The notes beneath the pieces were generated by a model. It did no database searches and was not told the DNA's origin. It saw only the letters and a list, made by a program, of their open reading frames with translations. Position numbers and translations under genes: made by a program. A DNA stretch of 64,000 nt, taken from an uncultured Bacteroidales bacterium. GTDB taxonomy: Bacteria; Bacteroidota; Bacteroidia; Bacteroidales; F082. The stretch is from contig CAMHJX010000014.1 of the NCBI GenBank assembly GCA_946185535.1, forward strand, positions 24,482 through 88,481, read 5' to 3'. Every line of letters starts with the position of its first letter. Position 1 is the stretch's first letter. This document shows, piece after piece, positions 42,871-61,587 of the stretch.

Positions 42871-42965
42871 TCTCTTGTTTGATTTGGAAAAACGAAACAC
42901 ATCTTTTTTCAAAAAACCGCATAATCTTTCGTGCAATTTTCGCATTTTTGCAGAAACAAACATTT

Positions 42966-44073: not shown

Positions 44074-45084
44074 TTATTCCAAAAGGCTCTCAAGGTCTTT
44101 CAAGGCCTTGCGGGCAGACATGCCCTGATGCAGCACTTGGTAGGTTTTCTCGGCAATGGGGAGCTGTCGGCGTTGTTCCTCAGGAAGGAATGGTAACAAG
44201 GCTGAAGAATAATATCCCTCGGCCACCATAGTCATCTCGTTGAGGGCAGTCTTTACCGTGTTGCCACGACCAATCAACACACCCAGCTGACGGTTACGGC
44301 TGTGACTGGAATAACATGACACCAACAAGTCGCCAAAGAAATTGGATGGATTGAACTTAGTGAGGTCATTGACGCTCTGCGGGGCGAGCAGGAAATACAT
44401 TTCCTTGATGCAGTTTGAAACCAATACAGCGATGAAATTGTCGCCATAGCCCAAGCCCATCGCCATGCCAACCATCACGGAATAAATGTTTTTCAGCACC
44501 GAGGAATGCTCCAAATAGTGCATGTCTCTCAGACAGTTGACCTTTATGAAAGGCGTCTTCAGTTTTTCACCCACAACGCGGGCATTGCCTATGTTGGAAC
44601 ATGCAAAAGTCATATAGGTAAGCCTTCCATGGCCCACCTCCTCAGCATGAGTGGGACCGCTAATGCAGCATAACTGTGCATCCGTCAAACCATAGTTTTG
44701 TTTCAGATAATCTGTAACAAACTGATTCTCTTCGGGAATGATACCCTTGATGGCAGAAACCACCATTTTGTCTTGCAAAGGGGTTTTCAAGTCGGAAAGA
44801 TAGCACTTCAGATAAGGTGCAGGCGTCACCAAAAAGATGATGTCGGCCTTGTCGACAGTTTCATTCACATCGTCAGTGAGATGGATGCGGCTCATGTCGA
44901 ACTCAACATCGGAGAGATAACGACAGTTGCGGCCTTCGGTGCGCAACGACTCAAGCACTTCCTGATTGCGGACATACCAGCACACCGACGACTCATTCAT
45001 AATCAACACTTTGGTGATGGCTGTAGCCCAACTGCCGTGTCCGATGACGGCGCAACGCGATGTCTTTTGTATCAGGGGACCCAT
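44074..45084 (-). CDS. gpsA: Glycerol-3-phosphate dehydrogenase (NAD(P)+)
   Basis: 336 aa. It reduces dihydroxyacetone phosphate to sn-glycerol-3-phosphate, the backbone of glycerolipids. The Rossmann motif is VIGHGSWATAI, followed by FLVTPAPYL, the catalytic Lys in SAIKGI, and later NIYSVMVGMAMGLGYGDNF (KNIxA-like block with K). The C-terminal domain ends with VAEGYYSS and HQGMSARKAL. It starts 18 bases after the BtrH-type gene on the same strand, so it is likely in one operon with it and joined functionally to the lipid cluster that follows. Confidence 0.95.
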   Translation of the reverse strand: MGPLIQKTSRCAVIGHGSWATAITKVLIMNESSVCWYVRNQEVLESLRTEGRNCRYLSDVEFDMSRIHLTDDVNETVDKADIIFLVTPAPYLKCYLSDLKTPLQDKMVVSAIKGIIPEENQFVTDYLKQNYGLTDAQLCCISGPTHAEEVGHGRLTYMTFACSNIGNARVVGEKLKTPFIKVNCLRDMHYLEHSSVLKNIYSVMVGMAMGLGYGDNFIAVLVSNCIKEMYFLLAPQSVNDLTKFNPSNFFGDLLVSCYSSHSRNRQLGVLIGRGNTVKTALNEMTMVAEGYYSSALLPFLPEEQRRQLPIAEKTYQVLHQGMSARKALKDLESLLE

Positions 45085-45102
45085 AGCTTTTGCTCTGTTT
45101 AT

Positions 45103-46152
45103 TTATGCATACTTTAGTGCCGAACTGGACTTGAGAAACTCCGAATCGATTCGGGTGAAAATCTCTTTCTCCTGCTGCCCGATGGTCTCCAAAATGTCAG
45201 CCATTTCGTTCAAGGTCACATTCTCGCTTTTCATATAGCGACGGCAATCCAAGGAGAATTGGCGCCAGGTGTCGGCATCCTTGTTCATCAATGTCGAACA
45301 GTCTTCGAGTACCTCATTTTGGAAAACTGTAGCGGCTTCTTTCAAAAAGTCGGAATAGATGTAACGGTAACCGGCGCCACCTGTTCCCGCCGTTTCAATC
45401 AGCCTATAAAACCATAGCAGTATATATCCTCTCAATTCATCTGAAAAATAAGCCTTCCATCGCTTCAGGTTCTTGGCAAAACGATGCAAGCCCGTATATC
45501 CGTAATAAGAAAGAGGCATCCGCAACATACGGTAGCACGACTCCTCCAATCCCTGCACAATGGCCGGTTTCAGGTCGACTTTCTCGGCAAAACCAGTCGA
45601 TGGCGGGTCGAGATAGAACATACGTCCTTCTGGAGCTGCCAGACCTTTGGCAAAACGAATCTTGCGCATAGTCTCTTCATCGATGTAGACATAGTCGTCG
45701 GTATATAGGCGGCTGTCGGAATCAGCGATGATATAGTTAGAACCCTCTTTGCCGATAACCGTCAACACATGACCATTGAAATGCGACTCATTGACAATTT
45801 TCCCGAAATAAGTTAAGCCGCTCACGCTGACCACCACACCGACTGGAATTTTTTTCTCCACCAGTTCATCGAGATCGCGCATTGACTTATTCACTTTGCA
45901 ACCATATCTCATGCCATGATAGCCAATATGCATCCTTTCGGCAAAATTCTTCACAATGCAAGCAGGCTTGATGCGAAGCATGGGTAAAACGACACCGCGC
46001 ATCCGCAAAAAAGGCGAATAAAGAAAATAAATACCCGAACCTATACCAAAAGCCATAGGCTCACTGATCTGATATCCGTAATATTCCAACATATTCAGAA
46101 AAGTGCCTGTCTCACAATGCTTTCTTCTCGGATTGGGATAGCTTTCTATCAT
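45103..46152 (-). CDS. BtrH N-terminal / DUF4872 domain protein
   Basis: 349 aa from the ATG at 46152 (MIESYPNPRRKHCETGTF); the 57 extra upstream codons of the open frame cross two promoters and are rejected. The N-terminus with KHCETG and GYQISEPMAFGIGSGIYFLY is the BtrH pattern, a papain-like fold in which the Cys is the nucleophile; BtrH itself is an acyl-ACP transfer protein of butirosin biosynthesis. FNGHVLTVIGKEGSNYIIADSD supplies the likely His and Asp. The second half is DUF4872-like. In Bacteroidota this family accompanies aryl-polyene and related lipid clusters. It is divergent from the acyl-ligase gene. Confidence 0.8.
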   Translation of the reverse strand: MIESYPNPRRKHCETGTFLNMLEYYGYQISEPMAFGIGSGIYFLYSPFLRMRGVVLPMLRIKPACIVKNFAERMHIGYHGMRYGCKVNKSMRDLDELVEKKIPVGVVVSVSGLTYFGKIVNESHFNGHVLTVIGKEGSNYIIADSDSRLYTDDYVYIDEETMRKIRFAKGLAAPEGRMFYLDPPSTGFAEKVDLKPAIVQGLEESCYRMLRMPLSYYGYTGLHRFAKNLKRWKAYFSDELRGYILLWFYRLIETAGTGGAGYRYIYSDFLKEAATVFQNEVLEDCSTLMNKDADTWRQFSLDCRRYMKSENVTLNEMADILETIGQQEKEIFTRIDSEFLKSSSALKYA

Positions 46153-46183
46153 CGTGTTTTTTTGACTTTGGAAAATAATGCGT

Positions 46184-46281
46184 GCAAAAATACGACTTTT
46201 TCTTTTTATGACTCCACTTGCCAGTATTTTCCAACGAAACACGCTCTTTTCTAAATTTTTATGAAGTTTTTGTATCTTTGC
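46184..46281. promoter_or_regulatory. Divergent promoter region, BtrH-type gene and acyl ligase
   Basis: Minus strand: TATTTTTGC at 46184-46192 for the BtrH-gpsA unit. Plus strand: TATCTTTGC at 46273-46281 for the acyl-ligase gene, with CTTTT about 22 bases upstream. The 169-base gap would let one regulator act on both. Confidence 0.6.
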
Positions 46282-46321
46282 CGCTCGATTTTGAAAGGAA
46301 ACATCGCTCATATCCGTCAAC

Positions 46322-47926
46322 ATGGAAGAAACCTTAGGTTTATATGAAACATTCAGGGCAGCTGCAAAAAAGTATTCCGATAAGGTTGCCTTGAGTTATT
46401 TTAAGACGGATACGAGGTTTAGAGATTTATTGGAACGCGTCGACATAACAGCCTTGGCTTTCAGAAAACATGGGGTGAAAAAAGGCGATATCATCTGTCT
46501 TGCATTGCCTTCGATGCCCGAGTCGTTGATGTGTTTCCTTGCACTGAACAAAATCGGTGCCATCCCCTGCATGATTGATGTCAGATACACACCTGAAGAG
46601 TTTTGCAAGATTGTTGACAGGACACATTCTAAAATGTTGTTCATCATGGGACTTTACGCGGCCAATCTAGCCACCGCCGATGCCCAGCTCAATGTGGAGA
46701 AAGTCGTGGTATGTTCAGGTGCCGATTCCATTCCTGGGATTTTTTTCTGGTTTGGTGTAGGCGAATGGTTCAATGGAAGGAGAAAGGTGTTTCGCAAACA
46801 CAAGAAATTCTGCCATTGGAAAGACTTTTACAACACAGCGCAAGGCAAAGATGAAACCGAGCCTTACCATTGGTTGCCCGACGAGATGGCCGCCTTGTTC
46901 CAGACCTCTGGCACAACCGGTACGGTGAAAAGCGTGATGCTTTCCACAGAGAACATCATGCACTCCGTGTTTCCCGACCCGCCCGTGCTCAACAATATTT
47001 CGAGCGACGATACTGCACTATGCATCTTGCCTATTTTCGCTTTCTTCGGGGCGAATACCTTGTTGCTCCCGCTGTTTAATGGCTTACGCGTCGTGGTCAT
47101 TCCTATCGCACCTCGCAAGGAATTCCGTAAAATCCTGGCCCAACACAAGCCACAGCATGTCTTTTCAGTACCAGCCTACTGGGATTTCGTCAACGAGGAA
47201 AAAGTGGTCAAGGAAGACTTTTCCTACTTGAAATCCATCAATGTGGCGGGTGACATCTTAAACACTGCTTTCGAGAAACGCATCAACGAGTGTCTGCACC
47301 AAGGTGGCTGCCACTATGACCTCACAAAAGCCTACGGCATGACCGAGACAGCTGGCGTCATTTCGTTCACCCCTCAAGGCAGCGAAAACCAATATGTTCA
47401 AGGCTTTTCAGGGAAACCTGTGACATGTTACGAGGTCAAGACCTTCGACGATGAGATTTGCGTGCACTCGGAGATGAAGTTTCTCGGGTACTATAAAAAC
47501 GAAGAAGCCACACAACAACTTGTCCAAACCCAAGCTGATGGCCGACAATGGCTACATACGGGCGACATAGGCTATGTGGACAAAGAAGGCAATATCTTCG
47601 TGATCGGCCGCAAGAAACGCATGATTGTCCGTCACGACGGCTCCAAAGTGTTCCCCGTGGAGATTGAAGACTGCTTGATGCAGCACCCATCAGTGGCAGC
47701 TTGTGCCGTGGTGCCCATGCATGATCCCGACCATTCGGAGAGCCATCTGCCCAAGGCCTTTGTGGTACTGAAGGATTCCGACACCCAAGCCACCATTAAA
47801 GAACTGATGGCCTACTGTGAGATGAACTTACCAGTTCACCTCGTTCCAGCGGCCATCGAGTTGATTGATGCCTTGCCGATGAACGGCAACGGGAAGGTTG
47901 ATTACCAAAAACTCATCAGAAATTGA
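46322..47926 (+). CDS. AMP-dependent acyl/aryl-acid ligase
   Basis: 534 aa adenylate-forming enzyme. Core motifs: FQTSGTTGTVKSVML (A3), KAYGMTETAG (A5), HTGDIGYVDKEGNIFVIGRK (A7/A8) and NGNGKVDYQKL (A10, catalytic Lys). It activates a carboxylic acid as acyl-AMP and passes it to CoA or an acyl carrier protein. A hydrophobic stretch near residue 140 (IPGIFFWFGVGEWFNGRRK) might touch the membrane, as in ligases of aryl-polyene clusters. Substrate not predictable. It is the only plus-strand gene of the cluster, divergent from the BtrH-type gene, and its 3' end overlaps the next (convergent) gene by 11 bases. Confidence 0.88.
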   Translation: MEETLGLYETFRAAAKKYSDKVALSYFKTDTRFRDLLERVDITALAFRKHGVKKGDIICLALPSMPESLMCFLALNKIGAIPCMIDVRYTPEEFCKIVDRTHSKMLFIMGLYAANLATADAQLNVEKVVVCSGADSIPGIFFWFGVGEWFNGRRKVFRKHKKFCHWKDFYNTAQGKDETEPYHWLPDEMAALFQTSGTTGTVKSVMLSTENIMHSVFPDPPVLNNISSDDTALCILPIFAFFGANTLLLPLFNGLRVVVIPIAPRKEFRKILAQHKPQHVFSVPAYWDFVNEEKVVKEDFSYLKSINVAGDILNTAFEKRINECLHQGGCHYDLTKAYGMTETAGVISFTPQGSENQYVQGFSGKPVTCYEVKTFDDEICVHSEMKFLGYYKNEEATQQLVQTQADGRQWLHTGDIGYVDKEGNIFVIGRKKRMIVRHDGSKVFPVEIEDCLMQHPSVAACAVVPMHDPDHSESHLPKAFVVLKDSDTQATIKELMAYCEMNLPVHLVPAAIELIDALPMNGNGKVDYQKLIRN

Positions 47927-48479
47927 CACTAAAGGTCATGCCCACACCCAGATTGGCTTGATCAGGCATGGTGGTGCAACGCATGACTGATGGCGAGAGG
48001 TTGAACGAAACCGATTTGCTGTTGTTGTATTCGTTAGCCACCCAGTTCATGCGACCCTTGCCTATGCTCGAGAAAACAATCCACAACGGAAGGCTGACAT
48101 CAGCAGCAATGGCAGGAATATAACTCGTATAGGCTAAATCCAGGTCTTCTTTTGCAATGGCAGTAACCAAACATACAACGGTTGCGGTAGCCGTTCCGAT
48201 AAAGACACCCATAAAAACATTTCCCGTTGTGATTTGCTTTTGCGCACCGAGATAAGTCTCATAGTTTTGTGAACCGACAAGTTGCTTGACTTCCGCATCC
48301 GAAAGTTGGCGACCGTCGAGGGTTAGGTGTCTGCCATCACGCTCCATGTGACCGCCCGCCAGGGTAGAAAGCGTCAGTTGGTTGGACACATTGATGGTTT
48401 CCGTTTCATTGTAGTTGCATTGTGCAAACATGGAGATACCTGCCAAGACAAGCATCATCGATAAGAATAACTTCTTCAT
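47916..48479 (-). CDS. Small secreted membrane-associated protein, unknown
   Basis: 187 aa. A signal peptide (MKKLFLSMMLVLAGISMFAQ) precedes a polar domain ending in SDAEVKQLVGSQNYETYLGAQ, then two hydrophobic stretches (VFMGVFIGTATATVVCLVTAI and SYIPAIAADVSLPLWIVFSSI) and a C-terminus with SFNLSPSVMR and ANLGVGMTFSVNF. The layout matches Bacteroidota envelope proteins in which a short beta-region ends in a barrel-like F. No function can be assigned. It is the last gene of the minus-strand acyltransferase-ligase run. Confidence 0.6.
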   Translation of the reverse strand: MKKLFLSMMLVLAGISMFAQCNYNETETINVSNQLTLSTLAGGHMERDGRHLTLDGRQLSDAEVKQLVGSQNYETYLGAQKQITTGNVFMGVFIGTATATVVCLVTAIAKEDLDLAYTSYIPAIAADVSLPLWIVFSSIGKGRMNWVANEYNNSKSVSFNLSPSVMRCTTMPDQANLGVGMTFSVNF

Positions 48480-48497
48480 AATTATTAATGTTTTAGG

Positions 48498-49622
48498 TTA
48501 ATATTGTGCTTTCACGTCTACCGAGTTGGCATAAATCCCCAAAAAAATCTCCTCCAATTCCGAACGGTCAAAATCGGGATAGTCGTTCATCCAATCCATA
48601 TATTTTATGAATGTTTCTTTTTGTTCCTGAGTATAATGCCCAATGTATGTTTCACTACGACTCCGCAAGTCGTGGGCAATGTAGTTGTTCGGATGGAGAT
48701 AGAAATGCGGATTGACGCGGCTGTCCATTAGCTCGGCCACACGCTTGTAGAACTCGCCCGAAGGGCAGTCGTTCATGGCCTTCAAATCGTCTTCTGAAAC
48801 CATCGGACAGATATGGAAATGCACATGACCCTTGGGCTGCATGATGCCCGTCAGGATGCTGTTAAGATCTTCGCCTGGTTTCTTCTCATAATGGCCGTTT
48901 TTCTTGGTCATGTACAACTCCAAGGTCTTCAATTTGTCGCACGACTCCCATTCGTACGACACCGCCACGGGTACGATATTGAGCTCAGCCAATGAAACTA
49001 CGCGGTCATCGCGGCGGCTCATGCCGAACATCTTGATGATGGCAGGGTCGGTAGCATCAATGCCGTTTTTGGTGCGACCATTGCGCTGCGCAATCCACAC
49101 CGACTCGTGCACCTCAGTGATGACATGGCGCATATATTCCGACATGTGCATCATGCTGTTGTAGAACTCTTTAGGCGAGCCTCCGCGTTCAGTGCGGAAC
49201 ATCTTGTTGACCTTACCGAAGTCGATGACAAAAGGATGCGACATCAGGTTGCTGCCGAAGGTGATTTGGCAGGTGTTTTGACCGACTTCCGTCAAGATAT
49301 ATTGCAAAAACATGGCATCAAGCACGATGTCGCGGTGATTGGAAACGAACAGATAAGGTTTCTTCTCATCGATGTTTTCCAAACCCGCCCAATCGAATTG
49401 TGTTGTGGTCTTTTTCAACAGGGTCTCTATCACCTCTTTCAATAGCACCAATTGGAATTCCTTCAAGGTTTTGATGCTACGGATCCTTTCACGAAGCGCC
49501 TCGGCAGGCACACCCAAATATTGGGCAATGGCAGGAATCACCTCGCTGTCGGCCATGCGTTGTGTCGCTGCGGGAATTTCGTCTGCATTGAAAGGTCTGA
49601 TATCCTCGAAATTGGTCATCAT
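48498..49622 (-). CDS. PlsC-like acyltransferase
   Basis: 374 aa. Motif I is VSNHRDIVLDAMF (HxxxxD), with SNLMSHPFVIDFGKVNKMF and WIAQRNGRTKNG as the later substrate-binding blocks (the second in place of FPEGTRS). It would move an acyl chain from ACP or CoA to a glycerol phosphate or similar acceptor at the inner membrane. The N-terminal 60 residues and the C-terminal 120 are extensions not found in standard PlsC. It overlaps the PaaK-like gene upstream by 4 bases (ATGA), so the two are translationally coupled. Confidence 0.8.
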   Translation of the reverse strand: MMTNFEDIRPFNADEIPAATQRMADSEVIPAIAQYLGVPAEALRERIRSIKTLKEFQLVLLKEVIETLLKKTTTQFDWAGLENIDEKKPYLFVSNHRDIVLDAMFLQYILTEVGQNTCQITFGSNLMSHPFVIDFGKVNKMFRTERGGSPKEFYNSMMHMSEYMRHVITEVHESVWIAQRNGRTKNGIDATDPAIIKMFGMSRRDDRVVSLAELNIVPVAVSYEWESCDKLKTLELYMTKKNGHYEKKPGEDLNSILTGIMQPKGHVHFHICPMVSEDDLKAMNDCPSGEFYKRVAELMDSRVNPHFYLHPNNYIAHDLRSRSETYIGHYTQEQKETFIKYMDWMNDYPDFDRSELEEIFLGIYANSVDVKAQY

Positions 49623-50917
49623 CTGTTTCTCAAATCAATGAATTTAATGGGTTTGCGACTCTTTGCGGGATAGTTGATTTGCCTAATCTCATCAACGGGA
49701 TGTATCTCTATGGCAGGAGCCACACGGATACGTGAACGGAAACTGTCTTTCAAGGTCTTGACCACATCAAACTCGGGTTCATACTTCAGGCCTATCTTCA
49801 CCACCACATCATCGGTGCCAGCTTCGCTTTGGCGCACTTCGATGACATAGTTCTCCACATAGTCGGTGTTGTCCAACACATCGTTAATCGCTGGCGGATA
49901 AAGCGTGGTGCCTTTCAGTTTGATCATGTTGTTCTTGCGGCCCACAAGCGGTGTAAGACGATAAGAGTTGCGGCCACACTTGCATTGGTCGACTATCTTG
50001 GCGGCGATGTCGCCCGTGCGGAAGCGCAACAGTGGCATGGCTTCCACGCCAAGGGTGGTGACCACGATTTCGCCTGGCTGACCATCGGGAACGGGCAGAC
50101 CGTCCTCTCCAATGATTTCAACAATAATCAGCTCGGGATGCACATGACCGCCAAGGCCATATTCGCATTCCGAGAAGGTCGCCCCCATTTCCGTCGAGGA
50201 ATAGGTGGCAAAGAGTTGCACATCCCATTTCTCCTTGATTTTCTTGCCCAACAGGTTGAGGTTGAAATCTTGGTCGCGCAAGCCTTCGCCGATGCCAATG
50301 ATGCGGCGGATGCTGCTGTTCTTATAGTCGATGCCGTGCTCTTCGGCATATTGGATTAGCTTGAGGATGAACGAAGGCACACACATGATGGTGTCGGGCT
50401 TGATGCGACGGATGGTGTCCCATTGCAGCTCGGGGATGCCGTTGCCCACGCGGATGACACCCGCACCCAATTCGCGAAGGCCAAGGAAATAGGCCAGACC
50501 CGCCATGAAACGTTTGTCCAAGGTGGTCATCAGCTGCACAACATTACCTGGCTTCACACCAGCACATTCAAACGATTTCTTCTCATTGAAGGCCAGACGC
50601 TGCAAGTCCTTCTCGGAACAACCAAAGGTAACGGGGTCGCCCAAAGTGCCCGAAGTAGTGATATAATCAATAATCTTGTCCTTCGGACAGCACAGAAACT
50701 CATCGTTGAAAAGTTGAAGGTCCTTTTTTTCGGTGAAAGGAATCTTCACCAAGTCCTCAATATGCTTGATTTTGTCGATTTGGATGCCATAGCTCTTGAA
50801 CATCCGCTGGTAGTATGGGGAATAAGCCTCCAAATAAGCCAAAGCTTTGTGCAGCAAGCCTTCTTGATAGGCTTTGATTTGTTCTATGGACTGGTATTCT
50901 ATGTCGTTGGTAATCAT
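49619..50917 (-). CDS. PaaK-like adenylate-forming ligase
   Basis: 432 aa, the length of phenylacetate-CoA ligases. Motifs: ITTSGTLGDPVTFGCSEKD (P-loop), TYSSTEMGATFSEC, MPLLRFRTGDIA, and VGRKNNMIKLKGTTLYP near the C-terminus. PaaK-type enzymes activate aryl or short carboxylic acids as CoA or carrier thioesters. A cysteine pair in DQCKCGRNS is typical of this subfamily. It is coupled to the PlsC-like gene and follows the esterase gene by 10 bases. Together with the ligase at 46322 it gives the cluster two independent acid-activation steps. Confidence 0.88.
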   Translation of the reverse strand: MITNDIEYQSIEQIKAYQEGLLHKALAYLEAYSPYYQRMFKSYGIQIDKIKHIEDLVKIPFTEKKDLQLFNDEFLCCPKDKIIDYITTSGTLGDPVTFGCSEKDLQRLAFNEKKSFECAGVKPGNVVQLMTTLDKRFMAGLAYFLGLRELGAGVIRVGNGIPELQWDTIRRIKPDTIMCVPSFILKLIQYAEEHGIDYKNSSIRRIIGIGEGLRDQDFNLNLLGKKIKEKWDVQLFATYSSTEMGATFSECEYGLGGHVHPELIIVEIIGEDGLPVPDGQPGEIVVTTLGVEAMPLLRFRTGDIAAKIVDQCKCGRNSYRLTPLVGRKNNMIKLKGTTLYPPAINDVLDNTDYVENYVIEVRQSEAGTDDVVVKIGLKYEPEFDVVKTLKDSFRSRIRVAPAIEIHPVDEIRQINYPAKSRKPIKFIDLRNR

Positions 50918-50927
50918 TGTTTATGTT

Positions 50928-51827
50928 TTAAAATCCAATTTCTTTCAGCCATTTGACAAATTCTTCCTTCCATGCATGGCACTCGGCGCTACCCTTGTAA
51001 TTGCTCATGCCAAAGCCATGGCCTCCGGTTGCATACTGGATATAACGGTGGTTGACACCTGCTGCCGTCAAAGCTTCATCCAAAAGTACTGAGTTACGGT
51101 AGTCGACCACGGGGTCGTCGACGCAATTGACGAGGAAAATAGGGGGACAATCCTTGGGAACATGTCTTTCAAGTGAAAGCGAGTCTTGCAATTTAGCATC
51201 GTTGACACGCGTATCTCCCAACAATCCCCTGCGCGAACGCTTGTGGACGCAGTCCTCCGCCATGGTGACTACGGGATAGAGCGAAGCCACGAAGGCAGGC
51301 TGTAGGCTGGTCTCGGTCACCACGCCAACTTGCTTGAGATAGTCATGGTCTTTGAAGAAAGCCGCCGACAATACCAAATGACCGCCAGCCGAAAAGCCTA
51401 ACATGCCGACTTTCTCGGGATTAATATGGTATTCTTCGGCATGCTCGCGTACCCATTGCAGTGCCCGTTGCGCATCAGTCTGCATATCAGGATACTGATA
51501 GCCACGGAAAAGATAACGGTAACGCCAAGCAAAAGCAGGGACGCCCGCCGTGCGATAATGCAATACGAAAGTGGTGATGCCTTGGTCGCGAAGCCACATC
51601 GCCACCGAATCGCCTTCCACCTTTTTGTCAAGCCAATAGTAACTACCGCCTGGACAAACGATGATGGCCTTCCCGTCGGGATTCATGTCAGCAATAAAAG
51701 GAATCAAACCCACTTTGCGAGCGCCTTTCACATGGACATCATTCCATATCGGGATTTTTTCTTGTGCCATCGAAGTTCCTATGTAGAAAACAATTACTAA
51801 ACTGGTTAACAGTGTCTTAATTCTCAT
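50928..51827 (-). CDS. Secreted alpha/beta-hydrolase (esterase)
   Basis: 299 aa with a signal peptide (MRIKTLLTSLVIVFYIGTSMAQ). The hydrolase triad is visible: nucleophile in MLGFSAGGHLVL, Asp in VNCVDDPVVDYRNS and His in YATGGHGFGMS; the oxyanion motif is VCPGGSYYW. This is the acetyl-esterase/lipase (BD-FAE, axe-like) family. In the cluster it may trim an acyl or acetyl group from the exported product in the periplasm. It overlaps the small gene upstream by 11 bases. Confidence 0.85.
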   Translation of the reverse strand: MRIKTLLTSLVIVFYIGTSMAQEKIPIWNDVHVKGARKVGLIPFIADMNPDGKAIIVCPGGSYYWLDKKVEGDSVAMWLRDQGITTFVLHYRTAGVPAFAWRYRYLFRGYQYPDMQTDAQRALQWVREHAEEYHINPEKVGMLGFSAGGHLVLSAAFFKDHDYLKQVGVVTETSLQPAFVASLYPVVTMAEDCVHKRSRRGLLGDTRVNDAKLQDSLSLERHVPKDCPPIFLVNCVDDPVVDYRNSVLLDEALTAAGVNHRYIQYATGGHGFGMSNYKGSAECHAWKEEFVKWLKEIGF

Positions 51828-52188
51828 TATAATTAAGTATTTTCATTACCTCTTCCTTCGTAAGCTGTCTGTATTTGTGCTGCATGTCAGCAAAGAAATC
51901 CACTTGAAAATACTCTTCATCGTAAAACGACAACTTCGAGTTGGTGTTGGGAGTGCATTCCAAATAGATAATATCTTCCAACTTCAGGTTCTTTGCTTCA
52001 CAAATCTGATCGGCGAGCTTGCGACCGGCATAGGTCACGGAAGTGCCGGGGTTATCTTGATACAATTCTGTAACGATGACATAGGTCTTGCCTGCCACTT
52101 CCCGGATTTTCAAGCCGCAGGTCGATTCCATGTCCCATTCGCCTTTAAAAGGAAATATTTCGTCGTAATAATCTGGAGAAACTTTCAT
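51817..52188 (-). CDS. Conserved small protein of unknown function
   Basis: 123 aa, soluble, acidic. It begins MKVSPDYYDEIFPFKGEWD and contains GKTYVIVTELYQDNPGTSVTY. No family recognised. The overlap with the esterase start and the short gap to the radical SAM gene upstream support that it is real and cotranscribed. It has no signal peptide, so it acts in the cytoplasm. Confidence 0.65.
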   Translation of the reverse strand: MKVSPDYYDEIFPFKGEWDMESTCGLKIREVAGKTYVIVTELYQDNPGTSVTYAGRKLADQICEAKNLKLEDIIYLECTPNTNSKLSFYDEEYFQVDFFADMQHKYRQLTKEEVMKILNYNEN

Positions 52189-52231
52189 TAATTTAAAAAT
52201 TCAAAATTTAAGATTCTACATTCAGCATTCC

Positions 52232-53566: not shown

Positions 53567-53583
53567 TTCATATTGTTGAAACT

Positions 53584-53592
53584 GCAAAAATA
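53584..53592 (-). promoter_or_regulatory. -7 box of the radical SAM gene
   Basis: TATTTTTGC on the minus strand, inside the 45-base gap after the desaturase-like gene. A second TATTTTTG lies just upstream of it. Confidence 0.45.
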
Positions 53593-53611
53593 CAAAAATA
53601 TATAGTTGGTT

Positions 53612-56599
53612 TTAACTTTTGTTGATTTTGCGTACTATGGCATTGGCCCCTACAAACGCCTCGGCCGTCTGTATGGCTGTGAGCGAAACGCCGCACAGTC
53701 CATGTATGTTGACATTCTGCCCAGTCAGAAACAGGTTCTTGACTTTTGTATAGACCGACATCTGCGAGAGCATAATATTGTGGCTATCCTTTAAGAAACC
53801 ATAGTTTGAACCTTCCTTGTTGCCATAATAGTCACGGATGGTGAGCGGCGAGGATGCCATTACGAAATCGATTCCGTCACGGAAACCAGGATAGAGTTTT
53901 TCCAAAAAGTCAAACACTTTCTCTGTCATCATTTGTTTCCATTGTTCGTAAGCTTCTCCCCGATGACCTACTTTGGTATCTTCCCAAGGTTTGACCCATT
54001 CAAAGGGCATCTCACCAATGATGACCATAGTCTCCGCAAACTCACCCTGGTTTTCAATCGCTGGAGTATAATACATAAGATTGTTCGGCCAGTCTTCCTG
54101 CCCCAGGTTTTTGAGGTTGAATTGCGAGTCGTACTTGTATAGACAATAGTTGGTATGGTTGACATATGGAAAAGCCTTCTTCTTGAATTTCACATAGACC
54201 TTGAAGCTGGAATAGGTTTCAGGAATCGACCACAGCCTTTTCCTGAACGAAACAGGGAAAGCCCTATCGCCCACCAGACGCAAAAGCACATCGGGATGCA
54301 CATCTGAGATGTAACCTTCGGCACGATAAATATGGCCTTTTCGGGTGACCACTTGTTTCACTTCGTGGTTGTCCACCTCGATTTGGATGACTTCTTCGTT
54401 GGCCAGCACCTGTCCACCAGTCTCTTCGATGACTTCTTTCAACAAATCTGCCATCTGTTGGCTTCCCCCGACAAACTGGTAAGTGCCGCCAATGTGCAAT
54501 ACACCGAGTAGGGCAGCCATAAAAGCAGGTGTCGTGCCTGCCACCCCACCAAAGAGCGGACTGATGTAAGACAACAAGCCTTTCAGTTTCGGATCTTTGA
54601 TGTAACGGTCCATCAACTCATCATATGGTACTATAGCGTCTTCGGACACCGACATGAACATTTGTGAGGGTCGTTCGCGCAAATAGAAGAGGTCTTCTTC
54701 TTCCGAAAGGGCATATATCTTCTCGACATAAGCTCTGATGTTGTCTTTTTCAGCTGGGAAAAGTTCAGCCAAATAGTTGATATATTGTTCTTTGCCTTTG
54801 GGAAGTCGATAGGAAGCGTTGTCTTCAAGCATTGTCACTACATCATAGCCATCCTCATCCATAGCACGAAGCGATAGACGATCCATGATGCCAAGATAGG
54901 AGAAGAGTTTGCGCAACTGTCCCACCTCATTGAAACCACCAAACACATGCATGCCCGTGGGAAAAGTGACGCCTTTTCTCTTGAAGTTTTGGAGGCCTCC
55001 GCCGATGATGGCATTTTTTTCCAACACGGTCACCTTGTAGCCTTCCTTGGCCAACAAGGCACCCGAAACCAAGCCTCCCAAGCCGCCTCCGATGACAACA
55101 ACGGTCTTTCGGTTGGCTTCCATCATCTGTTGTCGCACCTTTTCTTCGCCCAATAGATGCTGACACACCGTCATCGTGCCCACCAACACACCTAACATGC
55201 CATGTGAATTGATGTTTTGCCCCACCAAAAGCAGGTTAGATACCTTGGTCTTATACGACACTCTGTCTGCGATGTTGTTTACATTCTTGGCCAAACCATA
55301 GATGGAGCCTTCAGGTGTCAGCGTATAGTCACGATAGGTCAATGGTGTGGCGGCATAATAATTGGCCAAGGACTCACGGAAACCTGGGAAGTCTTGCTCC
55401 ACGGCATCGATAAGGCGTTCTGCCATCTTGTGTTTGAACTGTTCATAGTCCTTGCCTCTGTGGCCAATGGTTGTTTCGCTCCATTGTTTCACCGCATCCA
55501 TTGACATGTAGGCCAAAACGACGCCTCCACGGGCGGTCTTGGGATGAGGTACATGGCAATGATGCATGTAAAGATAGCCTTGCGGCCAACAGTCGTCAAT
55601 CCTTCCGCTCATCTTCCAAGGTGAATCGGTATGGAAACCATAAAAATTGGAGTTGATGTAAGGCATTGCGCCGTCCTTGAAACGGAGGAAGAGCGAAAAC
55701 ACCGAGATGGTGTCTGGAATACTCTTGATGCGTGATTTGTATGCTTCGGTGAAAACGCTAGAATCTACCAAATCCAGCATTTGCTTGGGGTTGACATCCG
55801 AAATGACCACATCGGCAGTGAAAGTCTGGCCGTTTTCTGTCACCACACCCGTAGCCTTTTTGCCTTCCACCAAGATTCGACTCACTTTGTGACGGGTTAG
55901 GATGGTGCCGCCATATTGCTCAAGCACCTGACGCAAGGCCTTCACGATGGCATCGCTACCACCTACAATACGAAAGGCACTTTTGTTGTAGAAATCGAAA
56001 ATGAAAGCATGCGTTGCAAAGGGAGTCTTGTCTTTTTGGGCAGCATAAAGCGAAAGGTTGCCTACCAATACCTCGCGCAGCAATGGGTCGGTGATGGTCT
56101 GTTCAATCACTTCGCTCAGGCTTTGGTACAACAACTTGTCGTCAATAAAACGGTTCTCGTCGACACTGTGCTGCAAGTCGCGGAAGGGTGACAAACTAGC
56201 CACCTGCTCCACCAAGTCGCAATAGCGCTCAAGGTTTTCCCTTTGCGAAGGGAAACGCTGTGCAAACTTTTCAATGAAAGCCTCGCGACCATTGGGAAAG
56301 GCAAAACGCTCGCCTTGCAGTGACACCACATCATAGGCCTGTGGATCCAAACAATTGAACTGGATTTTATCTTTGATTTCGAGATAGTTGAAATAATGCG
56401 AAAGCACCTGGTCGTCGTCGAGACTGCCGATGAAATGCATCCCCGTCTCAAACTTTACTCCATCGCGAGTGAAACATTGCAGACAACCGCCCACCTGCGA
56501 GGCCCGCTCCAAAATGGTGACCTCATAGCCATTTTTCGCCAGGATGACACCCGTCGAAAGACCACCCAATCCACTCCCTATGATGATGCATTTCTTCAT
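53612..56599 (-). CDS. Fused double phytoene-desaturase-like oxidoreductase
   Basis: 995 aa made of two complete FAD-dependent CrtI/CrtISO-like units. Unit 1 opens with the dinucleotide motif IIGSGLGGLSTGVILAK (residue 6 on), unit 2 with VVIGGGLGGLVSGALLAK (G504 on). Each has a VGGCLQ/IGGGLQ loop, a VGGS block (RIVGGSDAIVKALR, QFVGGSQQMADLLK), a GHRGKDYEQFK/GHRGEAYEQWK block and a C-terminal LLVGQNINSHG/LFLTGQNVNIHG. These enzymes desaturate or isomerise polyenes, or saturate retinol-like bonds. The fusion joins two related steps in one chain. It overlaps the MMPL gene by 4 bases (ATGA). Confidence 0.9.
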   Translation of the reverse strand: MKKCIIIGSGLGGLSTGVILAKNGYEVTILERASQVGGCLQCFTRDGVKFETGMHFIGSLDDDQVLSHYFNYLEIKDKIQFNCLDPQAYDVVSLQGERFAFPNGREAFIEKFAQRFPSQRENLERYCDLVEQVASLSPFRDLQHSVDENRFIDDKLLYQSLSEVIEQTITDPLLREVLVGNLSLYAAQKDKTPFATHAFIFDFYNKSAFRIVGGSDAIVKALRQVLEQYGGTILTRHKVSRILVEGKKATGVVTENGQTFTADVVISDVNPKQMLDLVDSSVFTEAYKSRIKSIPDTISVFSLFLRFKDGAMPYINSNFYGFHTDSPWKMSGRIDDCWPQGYLYMHHCHVPHPKTARGGVVLAYMSMDAVKQWSETTIGHRGKDYEQFKHKMAERLIDAVEQDFPGFRESLANYYAATPLTYRDYTLTPEGSIYGLAKNVNNIADRVSYKTKVSNLLLVGQNINSHGMLGVLVGTMTVCQHLLGEEKVRQQMMEANRKTVVVIGGGLGGLVSGALLAKEGYKVTVLEKNAIIGGGLQNFKRKGVTFPTGMHVFGGFNEVGQLRKLFSYLGIMDRLSLRAMDEDGYDVVTMLEDNASYRLPKGKEQYINYLAELFPAEKDNIRAYVEKIYALSEEEDLFYLRERPSQMFMSVSEDAIVPYDELMDRYIKDPKLKGLLSYISPLFGGVAGTTPAFMAALLGVLHIGGTYQFVGGSQQMADLLKEVIEETGGQVLANEEVIQIEVDNHEVKQVVTRKGHIYRAEGYISDVHPDVLLRLVGDRAFPVSFRKRLWSIPETYSSFKVYVKFKKKAFPYVNHTNYCLYKYDSQFNLKNLGQEDWPNNLMYYTPAIENQGEFAETMVIIGEMPFEWVKPWEDTKVGHRGEAYEQWKQMMTEKVFDFLEKLYPGFRDGIDFVMASSPLTIRDYYGNKEGSNYGFLKDSHNIMLSQMSVYTKVKNLFLTGQNVNIHGLCGVSLTAIQTAEAFVGANAIVRKINKS

Positions 56600-59500
56600 T
56601 TCAAAAAGTCTTGGGATTCAATAATATACTCACACTGTGGAACCGCATCAACACCCTGTAAGAAATGCAAGTTCTCGGGGATGTAACTGCAATGAGAGGC
56701 CAAGAGGAACTTGTCCTCATCTGCCTCAACGGCATATACCTGTGCGTCGCGATGCACCAAAGCCACCGTCCACGCCAACTCGCCATAGCCGCTGTTTTGA
56801 ATCAAAAAAGACTTCTGTTCCATGGCGTCAATTTCCAAAGCTTGTGCCTTGATTTTCTCTAGGTTACGACGACAAGTGCGTTCCACTTCCGGACCTTTGT
56901 AGATGTATTTGTAGCGCACAAATGGCAACACATATTCTGTGTTTTCCAATTTGTTCTTGAGTTCGGCAAAACGCTGGGTATAGTAAGCGCGGAACTGCGA
57001 AGTCAAAGCACGAGTCTCCATTGTGACCAACTCTTCATATGGCATGCGTTGCTCAATCACCACATGCAGTTGGCCTTCGCGTAATACCACATCTTTCTTA
57101 GGCATCACATGGTTGGCTCCGTGGATAAAGACCGGCAGAATGTCGAGCTGCAACGACTGTGCCAATTGGAACGCACCTTTATGGAAACGCAGGATTTCGC
57201 CCGTCTCAGAGCGTGTGCCTTCGGGGAAGACCACCACGGAATAACCTCGTTCCACCAAGTTTCTCAGGCGTTCCACATTCTTGTCGTAGCCGTCGGAAAC
57301 AGGATAATATTCGGCATAACGGATGATGAGGCCATAAATCGGGTTTTTCCATACCCAGTCCGTCGTCAGCAACACCACCTTGGGGTTCAACATGATAGTG
57401 CACAACAAGTCGAGATGCGATTGATGGTTGGCGATAATGACGGCAGCCTTTTCGAAGTTCTCGCCGTATTTGTTGACCAAATGGCACTTTACGCCTGGCA
57501 ACAGTTTCAAAGCAATGCGCATGAAAGCCGCTATCAATTGATGGAAACGATAGCGTTTCTTCTCGGTATTGGGGCCCAAAATCATGTAAACCAAAGTAAA
57601 CGGCGTAAAGATAAAGAACACAAAAACGACGAAGACCAACAAGGATAATAGGGTATAAATCAGTCGTTTCAGGGTCAACGGCACTTGGCGAAGTTGACCC
57701 TTTTTCTTGGTCAACCAACCAAAGACAATGGGAGGAAGATAGCAGGCCATCAGAACCACCGTAGCCATACCAATGATGGCCACCTCGGCCAAGGAACGCA
57801 TGGCGGGATGCTTGGCGAAGATTAAAGTGCCAATACCGATGAACATCAAGATGCCCGAAAGAATGACGCTGTTGCGGTAGTTTTTCAGCATTCTCTTGCC
57901 ATAAGCATACTCATAGAGCAAACCCTCGGTGATGAAGATGGTGTAGTCGTCGCCTTGACCGAAAATGAAGGTGGCCAAGATGATGTTGATGATGTTAAAC
58001 TTGATGTCGACCAGGTTCATGATGCCCAAGATCCAGGCCCAGCCGACCGTCAGCGGGAGGAAAGCCAACAAGGCAAGCTCCAAGCGACCAAACGAGAGGC
58101 AGAGGAAAAAGAACACCACGATGCTGCACACATAAAGGATGTAGTCGAAGTCGCTTGATAGCGCACTGACCAAGTTGTTGCCCACATCGCTGATGCTAAA
58201 GGCGAAGCCATTAGAAACCGAGGTCCCTGAGCCCTGAGCCTGTCGAAGGGTCGAAGGGCCGACTTGTTGAGGTCCCTGAGCCTGTCGAAGGGCCGTTCTA
58301 ACTCGTTCCTTCACCGCCTCCGAATCCTCCATCGGCACCCGCACAAAATTTACCACCCGCGCCACCGAATCGTGCTGCAACATATAGTTGCCACACAAAC
58401 CTAACAGCGGCTCCATCTCGCTTTCAGTCAAAGGCTGATAGTCCTTGGTGATACCCTCAATAAAAGGAGCAAAAGCGTTTTCAGTGAAACCCGCCTTCAC
58501 CGCCTCAACCTTGACTTGCTCGGCCAAGTCAGCATGGCGTTGCCAGAACTCATGCCACATTGCCAGCGATTTCTCTTGTCTTTCCACGGAAGGCAACAGG
58601 CCATCCATACCCGAAATGCTATATTCCACAGTGTCGGGAATCGACTGCTGCAAATGGGTGATGAGGCTTTCGTTTTGCTTGATGGCTTTTTGGAAATCCT
58701 CGGCTTCCGAAACCACATAAATCAAGTCTGTCTCCCCTTCCTTTTGCAATGATTCGCTCAGCAAGGCCAGGTCTTTCTGCTCTTGGCGCGTCATATAGTT
58801 GATATTATGAAGATCGGCATCGAAAGCGGCTTCTTTACCGAAATAACTGAGTATCAGCGTGATGATTACCAAAGGCCAGAAAGCGTATAGTTTGACTTTG
58901 CGCCACCATTCCGAAGGGGCTTTGCCGTCATCAACGAAGAGTTTCTTGGTCTTTTTCGGCACCACAGCAAACAAAGGCAGGAAGACCATCACGAAGAGTA
59001 TCGTTCCAACCAAAGTCAAGGCACCGAAAAGTCCCAAGTCACGCATGGCTTCGGCCTTCACGAAGACAAGGCAGGCAAAGGCAGCCACGGTGGTAATGTT
59101 GCCGATGACCAAAGGCTGGATGACATCCTTCAAGGCCTCGCGCTTGTTGGGTTCTTGCTTGATGTGGTCGAGATAATGCAAGGGATAGTTGACCGCGATG
59201 CCCACGATGACCGAGCCGATGCCCACCACGATGATGGAGATGCTTGATTTGAACAAGGCGATGACCGCCAAGGCGAAAATCCAACCGAAAAGGATGGCGA
59301 TGCCGAGCCAAAGCAGATTGCGTTTGCGTGCCATGGTAAACATCAAAATGCCAAAGATGAGCACCAAGGCCAAGGCGATGGAGAGATAGCTGTCGTGCTT
59401 GATCTGCCGCGCATTGGTGACGGCGATGGTAGGTGCGCCGACAGCCGAAATCTTTACTTCTGGATGCTCGCTCTCTGTCAATTCGGTCACTTTATCAATC

Positions 59501-60222
59501 AAATCCACGATTTTGGCGTTGCCTTGGGTGTCGCTGCCCGAGAAAGGCGATGAGAAGAAGGCAAAGCCTTTGTCGCCGCTTTCGTTGAAGAGGTATTCGT
59601 CCTCCAAGCGGTAGTTCTGTGTGGGATTGAGCGCGTTGAGCCGTTGCAAAGCGGGCGAATAGAGATTGAGCGGGTCAGCCTTGATGCCATCCACCACAAA
59701 ACCCGCCGTAGGCATGGAGAGCATCCGCTTGATATTAGCCATGCTATTGGCTACATGCTCGGGATCGGCCAGCAAAGAGTCCATGCGTTGGTAGTCGTTC
59801 TCCGTAAGGAACAGGGCTTGGTTTTTGCGGATGAAATCGATGGCATCAAACACTTGGCTACCGTCGACGCGACATTGCAAGTCGCTGACGATTTGTGCCG
59901 TGTCACATTCCTGCCAATGGCTCTCAAAAGCATCCATGGCTTCCATGATGGCGTTGATGGCTTCGTCGCCAGCCAACTGGGTGGTATCGGCAGTGAAGAT
60001 GACGGTGATTTGACCTTGGTTGCCCAAGTCGTTGTAGACCGAGGTATAGCGTTCTTTTTCAGGATCGGTAGGCAGGAAATCGGCAATGTTCTCCTTGTAT
60101 TCCAAACGCAGTGCCGAAAACACGCAGAGGGCCGTGACAACCAACAATAAGGCTATCGAGAAAGCCTTGTGTTTCGACAAGTAGTCATAGATATTGAGGA
60201 AGAACTTGTTCATTTTTTTCAA
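56596..60222 (-). CDS. MMPL/RND exporter fused to PlsC acyltransferase
   Basis: 1208 aa. Residues 1-860 are an RND/MMPL-type exporter: one N-terminal helix, a periplasmic domain, then two six-helix bundles (about 270-450 and 675-860; VGIAVNYPLHYLDHIK and FIFGQGDDYTIF carry the proton-relay acids). Residues 880-1110 are a 1-acylglycerol-3-phosphate acyltransferase with NHQSHLD (H933, D938) and FPEGTRS near residue 1000. Residues 1130-1208 look like a class I methyltransferase (GYGELAWTVAL, VYAVEADEDKF), probably incomplete. Such fusions mark aryl-polyene/flexirubin-type clusters, where the exporter carries the finished lipid to the outer membrane. A palindromic repeat is inserted in frame at about 641-666. 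Confidence 0.88.
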   Translation of the reverse strand: MKKMNKFFLNIYDYLSKHKAFSIALLLVVTALCVFSALRLEYKENIADFLPTDPEKERYTSVYNDLGNQGQITVIFTADTTQLAGDEAINAIMEAMDAFESHWQECDTAQIVSDLQCRVDGSQVFDAIDFIRKNQALFLTENDYQRMDSLLADPEHVANSMANIKRMLSMPTAGFVVDGIKADPLNLYSPALQRLNALNPTQNYRLEDEYLFNESGDKGFAFFSSPFSGSDTQGNAKIVDLIDKVTELTESEHPEVKISAVGAPTIAVTNARQIKHDSYLSIALALVLIFGILMFTMARKRNLLWLGIAILFGWIFALAVIALFKSSISIIVVGIGSVIVGIAVNYPLHYLDHIKQEPNKREALKDVIQPLVIGNITTVAAFACLVFVKAEAMRDLGLFGALTLVGTILFVMVFLPLFAVVPKKTKKLFVDDGKAPSEWWRKVKLYAFWPLVIITLILSYFGKEAAFDADLHNINYMTRQEQKDLALLSESLQKEGETDLIYVVSEAEDFQKAIKQNESLITHLQQSIPDTVEYSISGMDGLLPSVERQEKSLAMWHEFWQRHADLAEQVKVEAVKAGFTENAFAPFIEGITKDYQPLTESEMEPLLGLCGNYMLQHDSVARVVNFVRVPMEDSEAVKERVRTALRQAQGPQQVGPSTLRQAQGSGTSVSNGFAFSISDVGNNLVSALSSDFDYILYVCSIVVFFFLCLSFGRLELALLAFLPLTVGWAWILGIMNLVDIKFNIINIILATFIFGQGDDYTIFITEGLLYEYAYGKRMLKNYRNSVILSGILMFIGIGTLIFAKHPAMRSLAEVAIIGMATVVLMACYLPPIVFGWLTKKKGQLRQVPLTLKRLIYTLLSLLVFVVFVFFIFTPFTLVYMILGPNTEKKRYRFHQLIAAFMRIALKLLPGVKCHLVNKYGENFEKAAVIIANHQSHLDLLCTIMLNPKVVLLTTDWVWKNPIYGLIIRYAEYYPVSDGYDKNVERLRNLVERGYSVVVFPEGTRSETGEILRFHKGAFQLAQSLQLDILPVFIHGANHVMPKKDVVLREGQLHVVIEQRMPYEELVTMETRALTSQFRAYYTQRFAELKNKLENTEYVLPFVRYKYIYKGPEVERTCRRNLEKIKAQALEIDAMEQKSFLIQNSGYGELAWTVALVHRDAQVYAVEADEDKFLLASHCSYIPENLHFLQGVDAVPQCEYIIESQDFLK
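58221..58294. repeat. Two CCTGAGCC-family palindromes inside the MMPL gene
   Basis: Copy 1 (58221-58260) carries small internal duplications (CCCTGAG twice, CGAAGGG twice); copy 2 (58270-58294) is clean and reads CCCTGAGCCTGTCGAAGGG. On the coding strand they give ALRQAQGPQ and TLRQAQGSG, in the periplasmic segment just before the second membrane bundle. The frame is kept. Confidence 0.8.
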
Positions 60223-60321
60223 GAATGTGTTTTTGCTTTATCAAGAATTAAAGAATTGGAGAATTTTTCATTTTGCGTTGTATTTTGTTGGGTTGAATTT
60301 TTAATTGTAGGAATTTGAGAT

Positions 60322-60370
60322 GAAAATCGTGAACGATTTTCTTCCTCCCAATTCTCAGCACCGCAGGTGC
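60322..60370. repeat. Palindromes in the gap between the GT2 and MMPL genes
   Basis: GAAAATCGT..ACGATTTTC (60322-60341) and GCACC-GCA-GGTGC (60358-60370) lie in the 218-base gap 60223-60440. The flanks are AT-rich with AAGAATTAAAGAATT and its inverse TCTAATTCTTGA. A weak structural terminator or another small repeat family are both possible; no good promoter is seen. Confidence 0.5.
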
Positions 60371-60440
60371 AGTATTTCAGTATTCTTTATGCTATTCATT
60401 TTTCTCTAATTCTCTAATTCTTGACATTAATAATTTCCTC

Positions 60441-61193
60441 TTAATGTTTTCGTAGGAGCCGTGAGGGCCAGCCGTAGACAATGGCTACGAGGCAAAGGAT
60501 GGTATTGAGCACGCTGATGCGAAAGAAGTCCCAAAACGGGCGAAAGTGCGTGACACGGTCCTCTGGATATAAAACATTGACCTTGATGGGCACCAAATCG
60601 GTGCCGCGCCAAGCGGAAAAGACCAACAATGACAATTCAGCTTCATAGCGTGCGCTAAAAATTTGGGGCAACCTTTTCAAAGGATACAAGCGATAACCCG
60701 TCTGTGTGTCGGGCAAATCAATCCAAGTTTGAAGTTTGAACCAAAAGTTCGAGAATTTGTTAGCGAAGCTGTTCTTGCCCGGCATGTTCTCTTGTTTCAG
60801 GTTGCGGCTGCCCACAATCAAGGCGCCAGGATGTTGCTCCAATGCCTCAACAAACAGCGGGATGTCTTCGGGATAATGCTGTCCGTCGCTGTCGATGGTG
60901 ATGGCATAGTCGAAACCCATGGCCTTGGCTTTCTTGAAGCCTTGCTTCAAGGCATAGCCTTTGCCTCGGTTGCGACCATAGTCAACCACGGTGATGCGCT
61001 CGCCGAATGATGCCAAAATCTCGTCAGAGTTGTCGGTGCAGCCGTCGTTGACCACGATTACATCTTTGCAATAAGTCAGCACACGTTCCACCACATCGCG
61101 CAGGGTGCCGCCATTGTTGTAGGTCGGCATCAGCACGCAGACTTTCCTTTGCTGCATCAGGTTCCGTGTCGCTATGGCATCAGACGGGTTCAT
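60441..61193 (-). CDS. Family 2 glycosyltransferase, DPM1-like
   Basis: 250 aa. GT-A fold motifs: VLMPTYNNGGTLRDVVERVL, VNDGCTDNSDEIL, RNRGKGYALKQGF and the metal-binding TIDSDGQHYPEDI (DxD-like). The C-terminus with VLNTILCLVAIVYGWPSRLLRK has one hydrophobic segment. It would add a sugar or phospho-sugar to a polyprenyl or lipid acceptor. It overlaps the FabZ-like gene by 14 bases and belongs to the same operon. GT2 enzymes of this type are standard in Bacteroidota aryl-polyene/flexirubin-type clusters. Confidence 0.87.
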   Translation of the reverse strand: MNPSDAIATRNLMQQRKVCVLMPTYNNGGTLRDVVERVLTYCKDVIVVNDGCTDNSDEILASFGERITVVDYGRNRGKGYALKQGFKKAKAMGFDYAITIDSDGQHYPEDIPLFVEALEQHPGALIVGSRNLKQENMPGKNSFANKFSNFWFKLQTWIDLPDTQTGYRLYPLKRLPQIFSARYEAELSLLVFSAWRGTDLVPIKVNVLYPEDRVTHFRPFWDFFRISVLNTILCLVAIVYGWPSRLLRKH

Positions 61194-61557
61194 AGCTAAA
61201 GGTCAACGACATTTTGGTGTAGACGGAAGTTTCGTCGAAAATGACAAGTTGGGCTTTGCATTCGGTCTCGTTTTCAACAAGATTCGAAAAAGTGAAACAC
61301 ACCTCTTTGCCCTCGGCAGGAATCAGCACATTGAGGTATTTGATGTTCTTCGAAGCTTTCAGGAAAAGCGGACGACCAAGTTTTTGTTGCAGCACCTCTC
61401 CTGCAGTTTGTAGCAAACAGGCTCCCGGAGTGATGGGATTGCCTGGAAAATGGGCTTGATAGATCAAATGCTCGGGGTTGCAGCACAAAAGGGCTGCGAA
61501 ACCATTTTCCGTGTCTTCTATTGATTGAAGTATAAAGAGTTCGTCCAAGAAATGCAT
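61180..61557 (-). CDS. FabZ-like hot-dog protein, catalytic Glu replaced by Gln
   Basis: 125 aa. The hot-dog-fold signature is present: LIYQAHFPGNPITPGACLL, with the FabZ catalytic His in HFPG. By hand alignment to E. coli FabZ (FPGVLILEAMAQ), its catalytic Glu falls on Gln here (GACLLQTAGEV). The protein could therefore be a dehydratase with altered chemistry, a thioesterase, or a binding protein for polyene intermediates. First gene of the minus-strand cluster, with TAATTTTGC and TTTC at a 20-base spacing upstream. Confidence 0.75.
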   Translation of the reverse strand: MHFLDELFILQSIEDTENGFAALLCCNPEHLIYQAHFPGNPITPGACLLQTAGEVLQQKLGRPLFLKASKNIKYLNVLIPAEGKEVCFTFSNLVENETECKAQLVIFDETSVYTKMSLTFSYEPV

Positions 61558-61578
61558 CGTGATTTCGTTTATGAAGAG

Positions 61579-61587
61579 GCAAAATTA
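61579..61587 (-). promoter_or_regulatory. Promoter of the lipid cluster (leading gene)
   Basis: TAATTTTGC (-7) on the minus strand, with TTTC 20 bases upstream as the -33 element. It drives the FabZ-like and GT2 genes and possibly the MMPL and desaturase genes. Confidence 0.55.

Follow-up and report, generated by a model that had tools for sequence, protein, structure and literature searches.

We analysed a 64,000-nucleotide stretch of DNA (hereafter, the window) from contig CAMHJX010000014.1 of an uncultured Bacteroidales bacterium (GenBank assembly GCA_946185535.1), focusing on a gene cluster at positions 44074-61557. A sequence-only reading had described this region as fourteen adjacent genes for a lipid or aryl-polyene-like product. 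The open reading frame (ORF) list and family scans agree with the kinds of genes named there, while the count comes to 13 adjacent ORFs, all but one on the minus strand.

At the high-coordinate end, the first gene encodes a hot-dog fold (FabA-like) protein (61180-61557), an assignment that survives as a weak match, with 21.9 bits for PF07977 against Pfam's cut-off of 23. It is followed by a GT2 glycosyltransferase resembling polyprenyl-phosphate-sugar synthases (60441-61193; PF00535, 86 bits), whose NCBIfam matches to AglJ and PpgS both fall far under cut-off, and by an MMPL/RND exporter fused to a C-terminal PlsC-type acyltransferase (56596-60222; PF03176 and PF01553 over cut-off). The fusion protein carries NHQSHLD and PEGTRS motifs; its listed start is TTG, with the likely start three codons in. 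A tandem fused CrtI/CrtISO-type enzyme (53612-56599) has two flavin adenine dinucleotide (FAD) motifs and matches PF01593 in two stretches. Next come a radical S-adenosylmethionine (SAM) enzyme (52232-53587; PF04055, 30.4 bits, cut-off 29.5; likely start at codon 8), h123, a conserved protein of about 120 aa (123 aa here) that matched no family (51817-52188), a BD-FAE type esterase/hydrolase with a GFSAG motif (50928-51827; PF20434, 82 bits) and FlxY, an aryl (4-coumarate) CoA ligase (49619-50917). FlxY scores 698.7 bits against the NF053551 cut-off of 520, which upholds the proposed kinship with aryl-polyene and flexirubin clusters. Beyond FlxY lie a PlsC-type acyltransferase (48498-49622; PF01553, 34 bits), a hypothetical 187-aa protein without a Pfam family (47916-48479), an accessory acyl-CoA/AMP ligase on the plus strand, opposite to its neighbours (46322-47926; PF00501, 188 bits), a DarH-like (BtrH-related) acyltransferase (45103-46323; true start probably near 46152) and gpsA, encoding NAD(P)-dependent glycerol-3-phosphate (G3P) dehydrogenase (44074-45084; PF07479). 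The scans thereby bear out the two acid ligases, two PlsC-type acyltransferases (one fused to the exporter), BtrH-type protein, double desaturase (the tandem CrtI-type enzyme), esterase, GT2, exporter and G3P dehydrogenase of the sequence-only reading.

That reading had also held the ketosynthase, acyl carrier protein (ACP) and lyase genes to be missing, and had proposed a full-genome search for them. Family searches of the whole source genome (G000; 93.5% complete), in which the window's contig is C14, returned six ketosynthase places, ten ACP places and one FlxA place, none of which is on C14. The absence holds for this contig but not for the genome: contig C5 has four of the six ketosynthase places, including two within one 767-aa ORF, and the chain-building genes form one minus-strand run at C5:46875-58964. 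More specifically, the run comprises LolA, a half-size EamA transporter, the 767-aa ORF, a 300-aa protein with a C-terminal ACP and a ketosynthase (KS390), and then a 4HBT thioesterase, a FabZ-like dehydratase, an LpxL-like acyltransferase, an ACP, FlxJ, a further ketosynthase (KS408), FlxB and FlxA. The 767-aa ORF joins a ketosynthase to a second half without the ketosynthase catalytic residues (Cys-His-His), as in a chain-length factor; C5 thus has three ketosynthase genes (KS408, KS390 and the fusion) and two ACPs. FlxA (tyrosine ammonia-lyase; 843 bits, cut-off 700), FlxJ (597 bits, cut-off 560) and FlxB (408 bits, cut-off 340) are recognised by family models, and the dehydratase, DH155, is weakly FabZ-like (23.9 bits versus 113). 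Across the two contigs we find the components of an aryl-polyene cluster: aromatic starter supply and activation (FlxA and FlxY), a type II ketosynthase with chain-length factor, ketoreductase, dehydratase and ACP among the C5 genes, and a LolA-like carrier, an RND/MMPL exporter, a glycosyltransferase and acyltransferases. These make up a single locus in relatives and lie on two contigs in G000.

The relatives comprised 119 genomes including G000, of which 72 (G000-G071) are of the same genus. Of the 119, 41 have FlxY over cut-off and 38 have FlxA; within the genus, FlxY is found in 32 genomes, and together with FlxA in 30. Both genes share a contig in 22 of these 30, at a distance of 18.5-29.4 kb in 21 of them and of 73.5 kb in G071. 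Locus maps show both halves as a single unbroken cluster in G044, G011, G052, G038 and G060 (h123 of G060 being taken from copy L118), in the order FlxA ... LolA, hot-dog, GT2, MMPL, CrtI, radical SAM, h123, esterase, FlxY, PlsC. The hot-dog gene thus adjoins LolA where the cluster is contiguous; about 6 kb lies between the two in G002. The G056 cluster is without the radical SAM gene, and G074 has a shorter version. The sequence-only reading had suggested comparing gene order across Bacteroidales and had named a complete flexirubin/aryl-polyene cluster directly beyond this region in related genomes as evidence against itself; such clusters, with the chain-building half contiguous with the window genes, are what the relatives contain, for example G044.

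A wider set of 80 loci, the best 80 of 322 relatives in a contig scan with a radical SAM alignment, was by design chosen on the radical SAM gene, and contig edges cut off many of the loci. All but one (79/80) have titles that mark them as metagenome-assembled genome or uncultured, with ruminant or other gut samples as the source of many; the remaining one is an isolate, Caecibacteroides pullorum AN421 (L147), which shows no FlxY match in the flanking DNA covered. Among the 80 loci, h123 was detected in 80, CrtI in 76, the esterase in 75, MMPL in 74, FlxY in 70, GT2 in 69, PlsC in 67, the hot-dog gene in 66, the ketosynthase/chain-length factor in 57, LolA in 54, the accessory AMP ligase in 12, gpsA in 11 and DarH in 8. 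Detected core genes keep the same order and strand in 79/80 loci, so that chance is no issue for the gene grouping, and in 49 this is true of all nine core genes. The hot-dog gene lies less than 600 bp from LolA in 51 of the 64 evaluable loci (16 could not be judged), within 2.5 kb of a ketosynthase in 8 and near neither in 5. In a tree of FlxY, MMPL and GT2 covering 29 of 30 genomes or loci (L147 is without one gene), G000, G021, G071 and L104 group together with support 0.988, and G044/L108 is the sister of this group. Weak homologues of the 187-aa protein recur near the cluster in several relatives, two of them in G060.

Taken together, these results make it very likely that the window holds the FlxY/export half of one flexirubin-type aryl-polyene cluster, a resorcinol-less variant in Bacteroidales.

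We compared this cluster with those for flexirubin in Chitinophaga pinensis (flxA-flxY) and Flavobacterium johnsoniae by family models and description rather than alignment; FlxA, FlxB, FlxJ and FlxY, each over its curated cut-off, are the same. In C. pinensis, FlxA is a tyrosine ammonia-lyase and FlxY a 4-coumarate-CoA ligase, and further gene kinds in common are the type II ketosynthase, ACP, dehydratase and thioesterase, LolA, a glycosyltransferase, an acyltransferase and an exporter (PMC3992019). Differences from the flexirubin clusters are that DarA and DarB were not found here, that the radical SAM gene and h123 are added, that CrtI is doubled and that a surface-protein array interrupts the locus. 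The CrtI gene is a single unit in G038, G040, G044 and G056 as well as in three genomes of the same class (G143, G175 and G213). The CrtI-type enzyme was considered as a novelty and rejected, since a single CrtI-like gene also belongs to the G213 cluster and, in both G143 and G175, stands between MMPL and FlxY. Another described relative is pBGC-12, an arylpolyene gene cluster of the gut Bacteroides B. xylanisolvens that resembles flexirubin and has synteny to the C. pinensis cluster; ours is likened to it by description (PMC12940132).

The aryl-polyene cluster of Escherichia coli CFT073 (apeA-R) has the same kinds of genes, namely a ketosynthase, chain-length factor, ACPs, dehydratases, thioesterase, glycosyltransferase/acyltransferases, a LolA-like protein, an RND exporter and a methyltransferase (PMC8253772). 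The starter differs, being tyrosine via FlxA/FlxY here and 4-hydroxybenzoate in E. coli CFT073, and neither a radical SAM nor a CrtI-type enzyme appears in the ape gene table of that source (PMC8253772). According to the same source, the anchor of the E. coli aryl polyene was not known at the time of writing, and the aryl-polyene lipid of X. doucetiae is mentioned as solved. A precedent for a split gene set is arcuflavin of Azoarcus sp. BH72, for which polyene genes in unlinked loci, both essential, are described; it differs in being a resorcinol hybrid with a hydroxybenzoate starter from a chorismate-using enzyme (PMC3949708).

The gene content might alternatively represent a true flexirubin cluster whose dialkylresorcinol genes lie elsewhere and were missed. 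The DarH-like gene is present, the genome is incomplete, and in C. pinensis darA and darB do lie apart from the flx cluster, according to PMC3992019. In G143, G175 and G213, DarH is found within about 3 kb of darA and darB candidates. The darA candidate looks flavodoxin-like by eye, and the darB candidate is similar to FabH (E 3e-15). The DarA candidate has no match in G000 at E 0.001; across the 119 genomes, G117 alone matches it clearly, and two others do so marginally (E 6e-4 and 8e-4). A DarB among the four KAS III genes of G000 was rejected, the best match to the DarB candidate being 36% over 101 aa, and neither candidate has a match in the DNA of the 80 loci. Flexirubins sensu stricto are polyene acids esterified to a dialkylresorcinol and call for darA and darB; given that neither gene was found in G000, we regard a missed resorcinol half as very improbable. 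The DarH-like protein has H69-C70, H185 and D201 invariant in 8 sequences and no PDB relative at E 0.01; the enzyme, if active, would have to use another acceptor in this sub-clade.

The sequence-only reading itself proposed that a cluster without a ketosynthase decorates an imported or housekeeping-made acyl chain, yielding a glycerol-based polyene or aryl lipid by way of gpsA. It could appeal to the lack of chain-building genes on C14, to the two PlsC-type acyltransferases and to the position of gpsA, since, among the 18 same-genus genomes with a window-type gpsA plus FlxA or FlxY, all but one place this gpsA 2.2-6.2 kb from FlxY (the exception, G019, has no FlxY match); closeness in 17 genomes counts against pure coincidence. 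The chain-building part of this proposal is refuted by the ketosynthase/ACP/lyase half, and no outside acyl chain is needed. The glycerol lipid was dropped as well. A single PF07479 match makes gpsA the sole NAD(P)-dependent G3P dehydrogenase of G000, and PGK lies close to gpsA and a neighbouring PlsC homologue (55-56% identical) in four relatives without FlxY, G018, G031, G048 and G058; in G031 and G058 a homologue (74-75% identical) of the zinc-ribbon protein encoded beyond gpsA in the window (42879-44060, plus strand) also stands beside it. In G011 and G052, moreover, the cluster is present with gpsA elsewhere. PGK adjoins flxA in G000, G021, G071, G044 and G065. Because PGK and PlsC-gpsA are neighbours in the four relatives without FlxY, the cluster in this part of the genus is best read as sitting between housekeeping genes, with gpsA and PlsC as its flank, although PlsC comes after FlxY in G011 and G052 too; the PlsC gene at 48498-49622 is probably a flanking chromosomal gene. 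We therefore hold the sequence-only proposal as a whole to be very improbable. Two further observations concern these flanks: G052, G011 and G009 (L069, L070, L075) have a divergent gpsA (26-28% identical) elsewhere instead of the window type, and a Card1-like CARF endonuclease gene lies near PGK in G000 (L008:5441-6652; C5:65440-66651). Beyond the gpsA-side flank, the window encodes a 1568-aa repeat protein (37163-41869) whose repeats read as LRR-like.

Between the two halves lies an array of surface-protein genes. The window ends in one of these (61691-64000, minus strand), a repeat-rich protein with Flg_new_2 repeats and a type IX secretion system (T9SS) tail (Por_Secre_tail), inside which C14 stops. 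On C5, genes of this kind continue from the LolA side as far as the end of the contig; there, C5:1-46874 (L059, L060, L007) has nine large same-strand ORFs of 684-3239 aa, eight of which end in a similar C-terminal tail, as read from the sequence. Pfam scans of two of the nine found a T9SS sorting domain with LRR_5/Flg_new_2 repeats in one and a C10 peptidase domain in the other. In G071, a single 242-kb contig contains both halves, 50.9 kb of surface-protein genes apart, and C5 with its left end and C14 with its right end each align colinearly into this array. With G071 as a ruler, the unassembled gap between C5 and C14 would measure about 9.6 kb, and the full interval through which the two contigs are predicted to adjoin in G000 would come to about 59 kb. 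Apparently, then, a surface-protein array separates both cluster halves in the window's clade. That the separation is an assembly artefact of these repeat-rich genes would fit the two contig ends, but it is highly improbable given the G071 contig and the roughly 47 kb of array assembled on C5, colinear in pieces with G071. The surface-protein ORFs sit inside the pigment locus with no pigment gene broken.

The radical SAM enzyme has the CX3CX2C cluster motif at residues 183-190. It had been called B12-type; its B12-binding domain stays below threshold (PF02310, 23.4 bits, E 5.8e-5, cut-off 32.1), and a profile search of PDB matched only AprD4 (6fd2; 6e-5). Within the genus, the gene occurs in 25 of 32 FlxY-positive and 0 of 40 FlxY-negative genomes. 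Of 47 further members of the order, 5 have it at E 1e-80, whereas a phylum-wide sample of 147 other genomes, eight of them with DarH over cut-off, gave no match at E 1e-60. For its partner h123, Pfam searches with 32 members yielded nothing stronger than E 0.07, and PDB searches nothing stronger than E 0.056. The flexirubin-like clusters in G143, G175 and G213 showed no such pair. Full-text literature searches, whose coverage excludes most subscription journals, returned no description of the radical SAM/h123 pair. G117 carries both DarA and the radical SAM gene, the latter with one internal stop codon, so one trait does not rule out the other. A tailoring role, acting on the polyene or on its head group, is probable for the radical SAM/h123 pair.

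Several points weigh against the assignment to a resorcinol-less flexirubin-type cluster. The junction of C5 and C14 rests on G071 and is not read through in G000, and FlxA and FlxY are on different contigs in 8 of the 30 same-genus genomes that have both (draft assemblies). No thioesterase was detected in the G011, G052 and G060 clusters. In G011, G052 and G038, no PGK turned up next to flxA, so the chromosomal site is not common to the whole genus. Seven of the 32 FlxY-positive genomes are without the radical SAM gene, which is therefore not essential to the cluster. The protein at 45103-46323 reaches 255 bits against the NF053550 cut-off of 300, and for this reason is called DarH-like; the DarA and DarB candidates were named by position rather than by family model, and the genome is 93.5% complete.

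From gene content, order, homology and co-occurrence, each chemical step can be predicted for this organism. FlxA would deaminate tyrosine to 4-coumarate, which FlxY would activate. The type II ketosynthases of C5 (one fused to a chain-length factor), FlxB, the dehydratase and the ACPs would extend it to an aryl polyene, with FlxJ as the putative methylating enzyme and the CrtI-type enzyme probably setting the unsaturation or geometry of the polyene. The LpxL-like and PlsC-type acyltransferases and GT2 would join the polyene to a lipid or glycolipid anchor, and EamA, MMPL and LolA may transport it to the outer envelope. An envelope lipid is the likely product. An anaerobic ribonucleotide reductase (NRDD) encoded in the window at 23245-25356 is in keeping with an anaerobic host.

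The apparent oddity, a polyene cluster without a chain builder, is removed, and the finding is mostly an ordinary one: a known pathway can seem incomplete when the edge of a contig or window combines with a genuine insertion of giant surface-protein genes. We tentatively propose, with the balance of our judgement somewhat against it, that gut and rumen Bacteroidales harbour a distinct flexirubin branch that has lost the resorcinol cap. In this branch a radical SAM enzyme, probably B12-dependent, and its dedicated partner h123 would carry out a tailoring step that needs no oxygen, such as C-methylation on the polyene or the aryl head; in the sub-clade of G000 the DarH-like enzyme would have been re-aimed at a different acceptor, and the product would be a polyene envelope lipid of anaerobes that has yet to be described. 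What remains of interest is the resorcinol-less version of the cluster, with its conserved radical SAM/h123 pair, in gut and rumen Bacteroidales that are probably anaerobes.

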